A stretch of 64,000 bases of DNA, from assembly GCA_016841825.1 (NCBI GenBank), contig JAENYK010000006.1, positions 186,001 to 250,000 of the forward strand, read 5' to 3'. The notes beneath the pieces are model-generated. The model was not told the DNA's origin and searched no databases. It worked only from the letters and a program-made list of their open reading frames with translations. Below, piece by piece: positions 39,143 to 43,606 of the stretch. The translations under genes were made by a program, and so were the position numbers. Within the stretch, counting starts at the first letter, position 1, and the number at the start of each line of letters is the position of its first letter. This stretch comes from Halothermothrix sp. (GTDB lineage: Bacteria > Bacillota > Halanaerobiia > DY22613).

Positions 39143-39229
39143 AATTAAAACGACATATTAAGAAAATTAAAAGGCCTTTCTTTTGTGAACTGTATCTTGT
39201 CCAGTAGACACAATAAAAAATGAAGTGAT

Positions 39230-39274
39230 TTAAACAGCCTTGGTTCGAACTTCCATCGGACCAAGGCTGTTTAA
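39230..39274. repeat. 15-bp hairpin, terminator or element end
   Basis: TTAAACAGCCTTGGT (39230-39244) pairs perfectly with 39260-39274, followed by GTTATTTTG. TGTCCAGTAGACACA just upstream (39198-39213) resembles ends of IS3-type elements, so this may be an insertion scar. No transposase is present. Confidence 0.5.
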
Positions 39275-39405
39275 GTTATTTTGTAATCTTTTATAGTTGT
39301 AAAAATACCTACAATCATCACCATTTTTCGCTGACAAAAGCAGCACATATAAAATATCTATAATCAGAAATACTGAGTAAATATGTAAAAAATATTATTT
39401 TCCTA

Positions 39406-39434
39406 TTGAATTTTTATATGATGGATGATATAAT
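39406..39434 (+). promoter_or_regulatory. sigma-A type promoter of the TPR/peptide pair
   Basis: TTGAAT (39406-39411), 17 bases, TATAAT (39429-39434), 71 bases before the TPR gene. Confidence 0.8.
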
Positions 39435-39505
39435 TGTTACATAAAGTAAAATTTACGTATAGATTTTGCCAAAAAGATTAATCCAAAAGATAGGGGGTAA
39501 GGAAG

Positions 39506-40507
39506 ATGGTGGAATCTGGGCTGGCATTGTCGCCAGCAAAATATTACGAGGAAGCTAAAATTATGTTGGGGAAGAGGGATATGGTAGAATTTGTCTCAAA
39601 TATTTCTAGTGCGATTGTTCTTACTGGAAACAATAAGGAGATGTTAGCAAAAGCCACGTATTTAAGGTCAATCGGTTTAATGGAATTTAATCAGCACACG
39701 AAGGCAGTGGATAGTATTGATGAAGCTCTCAAGTACAATACTGGTGTAGATGTTTTGGAGTTGAAGAAATTGAAAGGTACTGCAAAAGGTTTTTTAGGAT
39801 GTGTCAGTGAAGCTATAAGAATTTATCAAGAGCTTCTAAAGGAAACTACGGAGAAGATTGCGGTCGTGAGAATTTGTATTAATCTTGCCTGGGTGTATAC
39901 AACATTGGATAGGGAAAATCATCATAAAGGGGGTCTTGATGAAGCAAAAAAATATCTGGATATGGCAATGCAATATTTTGACATTTTGCCGGATTTATTA
40001 AAAAGAAAAGTTTTAAATAACTACAGTGTTTATCATTTTTATCAAGGTGAGTATGAGAAGGCTATAAATGTTCTGAATGAAGCTTTAAAGTATGCTGAAG
40101 AAAGAGATTTGCCTAAGTTATATAATAATTTAGCTGAGGTTTATTTAAAATACTCTGAAGAAAAAGACTTTCATTCTTCTTTGATTCTGGAGTATTTGGA
40201 TAAATCGGAGATTATTGCTGCAAAATTTGATGATAATATAGAGCTAGCGTTTTCTTTGTATGCAAGGGCAAAATTAGAGATCCAGGAAGAACAGATATTC
40301 TCTGCTTTAGATACATTGTATTTGGCTTTTGACCACTTTATTGACTCGGAGGCGTATTCTTATTCGTTAGAGGTCTTACTAAAAATTAATCAATTGGTCA
40401 GTGAGTCTAAAGCAAAATGTATAAAAACTATGCAAGAAAAATTGCATAATAAAGTTAGAAATAACTTATATTATGAAAAAAATGAAAAAGTGAGGGGAAT
40501 ATTATGA
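39506..40507 (+). CDS. TPR-repeat protein, Rap-like
   Basis: A 333-residue all-helical protein with tetratricopeptide repeats from about residue 45 to 290 (for example AVDSIDEALKYNTG, AIRIYQELLKE, AKKYLDMAMQYFD, AINVLNEALKYAE). No HTH domain is visible at the N-terminus, unlike Rgg/PlcR regulators; Rap phosphatases also lack one. Its stop overlaps the start of a small exported peptide gene (ATGA), the arrangement of rap-phr pairs. It may bind that peptide after re-import. It has its own promoter. Confidence 0.75.
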   Translation: MVESGLALSPAKYYEEAKIMLGKRDMVEFVSNISSAIVLTGNNKEMLAKATYLRSIGLMEFNQHTKAVDSIDEALKYNTGVDVLELKKLKGTAKGFLGCVSEAIRIYQELLKETTEKIAVVRICINLAWVYTTLDRENHHKGGLDEAKKYLDMAMQYFDILPDLLKRKVLNNYSVYHFYQGEYEKAINVLNEALKYAEERDLPKLYNNLAEVYLKYSEEKDFHSSLILEYLDKSEIIAAKFDDNIELAFSLYARAKLEIQEEQIFSALDTLYLAFDHFIDSEAYSYSLEVLLKINQLVSESKAKCIKTMQEKLHNKVRNNLYYEKNEKVRGIL

Positions 40508-40629
40508 AAAAGGTTCTTTGTATGTTATGGGTGATACTTATTTTATTGGTGGGGAGCTCTATTGTTCTTGCTGACCCACATGGCGAGCCCGACACCGGTA
40601 GCTCTACTCAAGTAGTAATATTTGGTTAG
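40504..40629 (+). CDS. Phr-like exported peptide precursor
   Basis: A 41-residue peptide whose ATG overlaps the TPR stop by four bases. MKK and a hydrophobic stretch (LWVILILLVGSSIVLA) form a signal peptide with an A-type cleavage site; the rest, DPHGEPDTGSSTQVVIFG, would be the exported part. Phr pro-peptides are about 40 residues with the active pentapeptide at or near the C-terminus. No similarity to a named Phr is claimed. The RBS is GTGAGGGG within the TPR gene end. Confidence 0.65.
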   Translation: MKKVLCMLWVILILLVGSSIVLADPHGEPDTGSSTQVVIFG

Positions 40630-40631
40630 CC

Positions 40632-40733
40632 TGGGCTTGATGAAGATTAATGTTGCCATCTGAAGCCCCGAGGTTTTAGCGTTAGCTGAATGAGTTCACT
40701 GCCAGAGCTAGCCTGTTTACGGCTAGCTCTGGA
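40632..40733 (-). mobile_element. IS200/IS605-type right-end remnant, opposite orientation
   Basis: Read on the - strand: CCAGAGCTAGCC hairpin (40702-40713 with 40721-40732), then CGCTAAAACCTCGGGGCTTC, then CAAGCCCAGGCTAACC. The CTAAA...CCTCGGGGCTT core matches the remnant at 3443-3465. It begins right after the Phr-like stop. No tnpB is seen. The following 430 bases up to 41134 hold no gene I can support. Confidence 0.5.
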
Positions 40734-41695: not shown

Positions 41696-43222
41696 TTATT
41701 TAAGGTATAGTTCCAGGTCTTTGACCAGAGCATCAGCTTTCAGATTTGAACCTGTATGAGTCAGAATTTTATCTTGCCAATCAATGGTTGCACCTGGTTG
41801 ATAATAAACTTGGCGGACTTCAGCCAGTGCTTCTGGATGACCATGCAGACTGCCGTAACGTTGATTTAACGTATGATGAATCTGACTGGCGACGATGTCT
41901 GCTAAGACATAGTTTTGCCAATATACAGGATAATTAATAAACCAGGAGTCTGCTGCCCAACGTGGAGTATTATCCAGTGTGACTCCTAATACTTGATGAT
42001 CCATTTCAGCCAGAATATGATCTGGATTCTGTGACAGATCTTCATAAATTTTATATTCGGCTAAAGCATTTGCAGTTCTTTCCCGCAGGTAGTGGAACCA
42101 GGGGGCGATTAATCTCTTTTGAATCGACAGACTGGTTTCAGAGTCAAACCCCATGTCCTTTAACCAGTCAGGATGTCGTGGTACATAACCGATCAATTCA
42201 GCCATGCCTTCACTGAGAATCCCACTGTCTCTTTTGAAGATAAAATGTTCCTGTTGATTATAAGCGCTATGTAAAGCATGCCCTAGTTCATGAAAAAGAG
42301 TACGGAAGTAGGTATGTCCATCGGCAGGATTAGCCAGAATCTTAATCTCTCCATCGGTAATCTTCATACAGAGACCATTATATGGGATATCTGTGAAGAC
42401 GATCTGAATTCCCAGTTCTTTTAGGTCAGCATGATGGGCTTGACCCCAACGCTTTAATTGACCTTCGATCTTATCTTTGGGGAACAGATCAGGCTCAATA
42501 CCTCCAACAGATTCTAAAAGATACATCAGATCCCAGGGATGAATCTCAGGGAGATCTAATTGGGCCTGCCCATCGCTTAAAACTCTGTGATAGATAGGGT
42601 CTGATGCTGTGGTCAAATCTGTCAACATACCTCTTACCTGGGGCAAAGTTAAACCTTCGAGTTGGAAGGTAAAATCTAAATAGTTTGCAAATCCTAAATC
42701 TCTGGCCAGATCATTGCGTAGGCGGATTAATTTGAGTAAGTCCGGAGCCAGAGTCTCAGATAAAGCTACTTTTCCTAACCAGGCTGCCTTTCGTAAATCG
42801 GCATCTGGAGAAGTGCGTAGAATATTTTTGATACTTCCCAGATCACTTTTTTCTCCAGCAACTGTGTATTGGTGGGTGATCATCACATCTCCCAATTCCT
42901 GAGTGAGAGCTCTGACCTCTGGATTGCGAATAACTGTGCTTTTGATCAACATCTTTTTCCAGAGGGACAGACGGCGCTGCAAGTTGGGGTCTTTAACCTG
43001 TTCATCCCATGTATTTACCAGTTCAGCAAAATTGGGATCGGAGATCTTCTGGCTAAATTCCATTTCTAATTCGTCAATTTCCGGGATTTTAACTTTATCC
43101 ACCATTTTTTTGAATTGAAGCCTGCTCGTCTTTACTCGCAGATTATGAAGATCTTCTTCAAAGATATTTAAAAATTGTAGTAGTTCTGCTTCTGTGTGGA
43201 TCTGTGACATCTGATGAATCAT
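41696..43222 (-). CDS. M3/M2-like metallopeptidase
   Basis: A 508-residue zinc peptidase of the thimet oligopeptidase/oligoendopeptidase F group. The active site is HELGHALHSAYN (about residue 312) with the third ligand Glu in ILSEGMAEL. The N-terminal 200 residues are helical with paired charges. No signal peptide, so it probably degrades peptides in the cytoplasm. The length is shorter than OppF-type PepF (about 600). GGAGG precedes the ATG. The XRE regulator gene 28 bases upstream suggests an operon. Confidence 0.82.
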   Translation of the reverse strand: MIHQMSQIHTEAELLQFLNIFEEDLHNLRVKTSRLQFKKMVDKVKIPEIDELEMEFSQKISDPNFAELVNTWDEQVKDPNLQRRLSLWKKMLIKSTVIRNPEVRALTQELGDVMITHQYTVAGEKSDLGSIKNILRTSPDADLRKAAWLGKVALSETLAPDLLKLIRLRNDLARDLGFANYLDFTFQLEGLTLPQVRGMLTDLTTASDPIYHRVLSDGQAQLDLPEIHPWDLMYLLESVGGIEPDLFPKDKIEGQLKRWGQAHHADLKELGIQIVFTDIPYNGLCMKITDGEIKILANPADGHTYFRTLFHELGHALHSAYNQQEHFIFKRDSGILSEGMAELIGYVPRHPDWLKDMGFDSETSLSIQKRLIAPWFHYLRERTANALAEYKIYEDLSQNPDHILAEMDHQVLGVTLDNTPRWAADSWFINYPVYWQNYVLADIVASQIHHTLNQRYGSLHGHPEALAEVRQVYYQPGATIDWQDKILTHTGSNLKADALVKDLELYLK

Positions 43223-43249
43223 GTTGATTCCTCCTTTGTAAAAAACTTT

Positions 43250-43606
43250 TTATTTGGAGTGGACCAGTTTGACCACTTCCAGGATCTTTTGAATATCTTC
43301 CGGGTTAAGGTTACGGGTCTCCCAAAGGAGATTGGCACGCTCTTCAGATTTGAGGAGATCGAGTAGAATCTCTTTCTCCTTCTCATCCAGTCCCTGAAAT
43401 AAGTCTTCCCCCAGAATATAGGAGATGGGAGTTTTATAGAATTGACAGAGCTGTTCCAGGGTTGACAAGGATGGCATGCGTTTGCCATTTTCTAAAAGTG
43501 AAAGATAGCCATTGGAGATGCCGAGTTCCTTTTCAAGATCCCGGGTTGAATATCCACATTTGAGTCTTACATTTTTTAAACGTTGCCCAATCCCTGTTGT
43601 TTTCAC
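43250..43606 (-). CDS. XRE family HTH regulator
   Basis: A 118-residue DNA-binding protein. Helix-turn-helix in residues 7-62: IGQRLKNVRLKCGYSTRDLEKEL, GISNGYLSLLENGKRMPSLSTLE, the lambda Cro/C1 type. A short C-terminal helical tail follows. GTG start with AAGGAG upstream. First gene of a three-gene - strand unit. Confidence 0.9.
   Translation of the reverse strand: MKTTGIGQRLKNVRLKCGYSTRDLEKELGISNGYLSLLENGKRMPSLSTLEQLCQFYKTPISYILGEDLFQGLDEKEKEILLDLLKSEERANLLWETRNLNPEDIQKILEVVKLVHSK

Follow-up and report, generated by a model that had tools for sequence, protein, structure and literature searches.

A candidate RRNPP-type peptide-signalling pair of Halothermothrix sp., its paralogues in a sister genus and its prophage-borne relatives

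The gene pair described here lies in a 64,000-nucleotide stretch of Halothermothrix sp. contig JAENYK010000006.1 (the window, i.e. the whole stretch that was analysed) and is probably best explained as an RRNPP-type peptide-signalling pair, in which a TPR receptor that has no DNA-binding domain of its own would act on a separate XRE-type regulator. This interpretation draws on the recurrence of the pair in two genera, on the co-variation of the receptors with their peptides, on a conserved promoter sequence and on linkage to genes for proteins with two HTH stretches.

The window pair, its signals and its paralogues

ORF calling and Pfam analysis confirmed to the exact coordinates the gene organization given in the preliminary description, namely a 333-aa TPR protein without an HTH, coupled by an ATGA overlap to a 41-aa ORF with a signal peptide and an 18-residue tail (Table 1). 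In the larger protein TPR_12 and TPR_2 score above the Pfam cut-offs; TPR repeats are its sole Pfam match, and no HTH was found by this method. The 41-aa precursor, for which neither Pfam nor NCBIfam reported any match, exhibits a basic start, a long hydrophobic core and a VLA cleavage motif (rule-based), with 18 residues following ...SIVLA. The published RRNPP detector signature comprises a TPR receptor of 250-500 aa, a propeptide of 10-100 aa located at -60 to +400 bp and a Sec signal peptide (PMC10075063). Both the length of the window receptor and the length and 4-base overlap of the peptide fall inside these ranges, and a Sec signal peptide is predicted on the propeptide by rule; an N-terminal HTH like that of AimR-type receptors was not found in the window protein by Pfam.

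Table 1. Features of the TPR-peptide locus in the window
Feature	Position	Strand	Basis
TPR receptor-like protein, 333 aa, no HTH found	39506..40507	+	ORF call, Pfam
Putative exported propeptide, 41 aa, ATGA overlap with the TPR ORF	40504..40629	+	
Predicted signal peptide MKKVLCMLWVILILLVGSSIVLA	40504..40572	+	rule-based cleavage
Predicted 18-residue tail DPHGEPDTGSSTQVVIFG	40573..40626	+	
Ribosome-binding site gagggg of the peptide gene	40492..40497	+	
Promoter TTGAAT-N17-TATAAT, TG before the -10	39406..39434	+	
Upstream element common to the promoters of the window pair and two paralogous pairs	39348..39439	+	
Terminator-like hairpin between the upstream MacB/LolD-like ABC genes and the pair	39229..39275	+	

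The window genome (5.08 Mb in 43 contigs) contains more than 20 paralogues of the TPR gene, and further ones are found in a sister genus of the same family (genome G001, one 3.56-Mb contig), which is probably Anoxybacter fermentans. A signal-peptide ORF lies downstream of most TPR genes of both genomes, and reading downstream of each TPR gene yielded at least 34 TPR-peptide loci, 24 in the window genome and 10 in G001. Under a strict automatic rule, a peptide follows 25 of the 46 TPR-family genes, whereas of 479 other genes from the same sequence only 2 are followed by one (Fisher p = 6e-28, a value that overstates independence, as the 46 TPR genes are mutually related), and one of these two control positives is itself an HTH-peptide-TPR locus. 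The peptide is thus conserved beside orthologous TPR genes in two genera, where the preliminary description had proposed to look for its refutation. A chance ORF was ruled out for the 41-aa peptide by the conservation among paralogues and across genera. Several paralogues of the window genome are fragments or contain stops with the peptide ORF intact, which could be due to decay or to assembly error. Other arrangements include a tandem array (L085 10149-15854, G000 C14), with a TPR-peptide pair, four peptide-less TPR genes and a convergent double-HTH gene, and two loci with the order HTH-peptide-TPR on one strand (L110 3208-4659 and L112 3076-4663), whose tails end in ...STNAPGFDDDEE and ...TTNGPAYDDDESN.

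The TPR family was not found in the other 57 genomes of the class (59 searched), and among 299 genomes of the phylum it was found only in the window genome and G001. Searches of GTDB contigs, a set from which the window genome or its nearest relatives may be missing, reported no relatives for A2 and only generic TPRs for A3, and tblastn searches of plasmids and phages revealed no relatives.

The consensus-like promoter noticed earlier is, taken alone, no better than chance (10 promoter-type sites in the region versus 8.4 expected), but it carries TGATATAAT, which lies upstream of 14 of the 23 pair loci examined, in both genera. The 92-bp upstream element matches C22:5700-5791 at 88% and C41:4503-4592 at 74%, the former value exceeding the conservation of the C22 coding start (69%), and paralogues, too, have G-rich sites in front of their peptide ORFs. 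Together, the hairpin (1 such structure found in the region versus 0.9 expected by chance) and the extended -10 promoter suggest that the pair forms its own transcription unit. Control of the adjacent ABC genes, suggested in the preliminary description as a possibility, found no support and was set aside: the hairpin lies between them and the pair, and no fixed neighbour of pair loci was seen apart from a double-HTH gene, present at about one third of them and missing at the window copy; ABC genes are also found near several other pairs. Rfam reported no family at threshold in the window, and weak Rfam hits on the hairpin were dismissed. On the 3' side of the peptide gene there is a perfect 12-bp palindrome, CCAGAGCTAGCC...GGCTAGCTCTGG (window 40702-40732), without a T-run.

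Peptide tails, receptor fold and the double-HTH proteins

The predicted tails have a median length of 23 aa and are acidic and proline-rich, with 18 K+R against 166 D+E in 833 residues and a negative net charge in 32 of the 32 tails analysed (mean -4.6). Their motifs either follow the cleavage site immediately or lie at the C-terminal end, and they are kept across genera within receptor clades of the tree (DPVWDDEP / NPNWADEP / DPAWDDEP in one set, GPNWPPDD / GPTWPGDS in a second); in addition, GPIxxP is repeated inside one precursor in each of the two genera, and close paralogues in the window genome carry the matching tails GGDIVTTGDPLPHDEWE and GGDIFLNGDPHTKDEWD. Shuffle counts for these motifs are descriptive only, since the tails had been inspected before the regular expressions were picked, and some cleavage sites were placed manually. 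In comparison with Phr signals, the tails described here are set apart by their acidic, proline-rich composition and by a motif that often directly follows the cleavage site. Receptor similarity correlates with tail similarity (r = 0.35, 0/5000 permutations) and more weakly with similarity of the signal-peptide part (r = 0.22, 49/5000), and the receptor-tail correlation persists when only cross-genus comparisons are used (15/20000). As judged from these sequence comparisons, the TPR-peptide pair is inherited as a unit.

The single-sequence model of the window TPR protein was too poor for use (pLDDT 47). A prophage paralogue from the sister genus, 30% identical to the window protein, was modelled with an alignment consisting of itself, the window protein and the second prophage receptor (pLDDT 89, pTM 0.81), and the model is an all-helical superhelix without an HTH. 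Its best bacterial structure matches include NprR (residues 107-404, Z 22.7) and Rap proteins, RapLS20 among them (Z 21-22.5), but LGN and other TPR solenoids score equal or higher (Z to 26), so the fit to Rap/NprR is non-specific. The Rap-Phr reading of the preliminary description stands as regards the form of the pair, which is RRNPP/Rap-Phr-like in kind, but finds no clear support as regards membership in the Rap family. Residue 1 of the model falls on Rap residues 45-48 in most alignment rows (those of RapF, RapI and RapLS20 differ), and hence part of the three-helix bundle that precedes the TPRs at the N terminus of Rap seems to be absent; the model begins in the TPR region, being aligned to NprR from residue 107. 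The viral fold library returned generic TPR hits. At the sequence level, Rap does not occur among the 60 best PDB matches listed for profile A1 and was not reported in the P0001 search at E 1, and a sister-clade profile matched RapF in register (192-298 on 191-300, E 7e-9), ranked behind generic TPRs.

Comparison of gene neighbourhoods revealed an XRE-like protein of ~170 aa with two HTH stretches (A4) beside several pairs, usually encoded convergently with the peptide end; HTH_3 was identified in 7 of 7 such proteins. Genes of this type have a TPR-family gene within 1 kb in 9 of 17 and 7 of 13 cases in the two genomes, versus a mean of 0.24-0.28 for random placement (0 of 20000 placements reach the observed values; several double-HTH genes share one locus and are thus not all independent). 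About half of the double-HTH genes are located away from these TPR genes; when these other copies were traced, additional, divergent TPR-peptide pairs came to light. Full-length strong matches occur only in the two receptor-bearing genomes, with only weak partial matches in larger ORFs elsewhere among 398 genomes of the phylum. The search for a hidden double-HTH remnant beside the window pair found only an XRE gene (43250-43606, 2.6 kb off; match 43412-43591), and L081, a relative of the window copy, retains a partial double-HTH neighbour.

Several further genes were observed in these neighbourhoods. A single-HTH protein of 69-89 aa recurs beside double-HTH loci (L085 9613-9870, L093 6248-6517, L147 4922-5131, L151 8255-8464, L153 5360-5584). 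An M3-family oligoendopeptidase-like gene adjoins the 118-aa XRE regulator of the window (41696-43606, minus strand), and similar peptidase genes are found in two other TPR neighbourhoods (L094, L099). An Opp-type operon (L092 5258-8841), with two likely permeases and a PF00496 binding protein, adjoins a TPR fragment and a double-HTH gene.

Prophage copies and relation to known systems

A viral-contig scan reported one predicted provirus of 58,237 bp, identical to G001 where compared, which spans approximately G001 736153-794389 and contains two TPR-peptide pairs. The pair at the left end lies between four double-HTH-type genes, and the one at the right end, with two peptide ORFs, lies between lysis genes and the integrase; terminase, portal, head, tape-measure, endolysin and integrase genes were identified with PHROGs and Pfam. 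Upstream of a TPR-peptide pair in the right provirus part (L103 7516-7787, G001) there are four CRISPR-like 36-bp repeats with a spacing of 76-86 bp, located within 463-bp direct repeats, 98% identical, that flank that pair.

The closest known layout is that of the Bacillus subtilis plasmid pLS20, on which Rap acts as anti-repressor towards the XRE-type Rco and the peptide in turn inhibits Rap (PMC3814332). The RapLS20-PhrLS20-RcoLS20 system comprises an HTH-less TPR receptor gene, an ATGA-overlapping phr gene for an exported peptide and a convergent gene for the XRE-type HTH regulator, which is the layout of most TPR-peptide-double-HTH loci described here. However, the similarity of the TPR sequences is slight (31% hhalign probability over 126 columns), Rco matches the double-HTH profile only across its one HTH, and the loci in question differ by their acidic proline-rich tails and by dozens of chromosomal copies. 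With weak similarity of the receptor and HTH-only similarity of the regulator, the resemblance to pLS20 is one of layout and not proof of kinship.

An HTH-less RRNPPA 'subfamily 17' has been named from A. fermentans in PMC12700828, the candidate receptors of which stem from RRNPP_detector (PMC10075063), and consequently an RRNPP receptor that lacks an HTH is no new idea for this lineage. That subfamily shares with our loci HTH-less receptors and the same kind of organism, and may be the same family. It differs in being mentioned once in the main text of that paper, without a partner, a motif or a link to a prophage. In the main texts searched, we came across no description of a link to double-HTH genes, of the tail motifs, of an expansion across genera or of copies on a prophage. 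The arbitrium system AimR-AimP of Bacillus phages is likewise a peptide-receptor pair carried on prophages, and one pair here lies amid repressor-like genes; however, AimR has its own HTH, whereas none was found here and separate double-HTH genes flank the pair. A large paralogous expansion is also known for AloR-AloP of Paenibacillus, with more than 25 pairs in some species according to the abstract of PMC7425212; PMC12700828 places it in a different receptor clan.

Proposed mechanism and rival explanations

The preliminary description had proposed to check for an Opp importer. Opp-type binding proteins are present (10 strong matches in the window genome), Spo0A is found in both genomes, and the presence of Omp85 supports the diderm host named in that description. 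In the signalling model that we favour, the Sec pathway would export the 41-aa precursor and signal peptidase I would cleave it behind ...VLA, releasing an acidic tail that contains proline. This tail, whole or in part, would return to the cytoplasm via an Opp-type importer and bind in the groove of the TPR superhelix, which would reside there and has no HTH. Binding would alter the grip of the TPR protein on a separate DNA-binding regulator of the XRE type, in many cases a double-HTH protein, as with RapLS20, Phr and Rco on pLS20. The presumed regulator is encoded next door at about one third of the pair loci; for the window copy, its gene would have to lie elsewhere. The outer membrane speaks against this model, as it may hold back a peptide of ~2 kDa.

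The outer membrane also speaks for an alternative which we regard as rather unlikely: a cell-autonomous export/import checkpoint, with the peptide kept in the periplasm to report the cell's own secretion or growth and not population density. Usual porin substrates are smaller than peptides of ~23 aa, the median length of the tails, and the many private pairs per genome fit such a role as well; however, passage through the outer membrane or clipping to short pieces is possible, and the prophage copies fit signalling between elements. Somewhat less probable still, in our view, is the classical Rap-Phr mode, in which the TPR protein inhibits a response regulator of the Spo0F/ComA type, the peptide relieves the inhibition, and the double-HTH genes are incidental or serve cassette control. 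Spo0A in both genomes, the Rap-like fold of the paralogue model and the in-register match to RapF speak for it, against which stand the apparent absence of part of the N-terminal bundle, the linkage to double-HTH genes and tails unlike Phr signals. A small, exported, hypervariable protein with some copies on a prophage could also be a bacteriocin-like or toxin-like effector, with the TPR protein as its regulator or immunity factor, but this is very improbable: the precursor lacks any Pfam or NCBIfam match, the uniformly negative tails contrast with typical cationic antimicrobial peptides, and the TPR-tail co-variation and internally repeated motifs better fit receptor-ligand specificity.

Returning to the signalling model, we tentatively propose, as a broader reading that we hold with less than even confidence, a lineage-specific 'split' RRNPP system of diderm Firmicutes. 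It would combine a receptor without a DNA-binding domain, a separate double-HTH XRE-like regulator and acidic proline-rich peptides unlike Phr (DPxWxDEP, GPxWP, GPIxxP), with more than 20 pairs in one genome; a prophage would have it as well and might employ it in deciding on lysogeny.

Descriptions of RRNPP signalling treat it as a Gram-positive system. If the pairs work, they would offer a test of how RRNPP-type peptide signals function in cells with an outer membrane, natural receptor-ligand pairs by the dozen for studies of specificity, and a hint as to where the DNA-binding partner of an HTH-less receptor is located, while the prophage copies would make an arbitrium-like test possible outside Bacillus.
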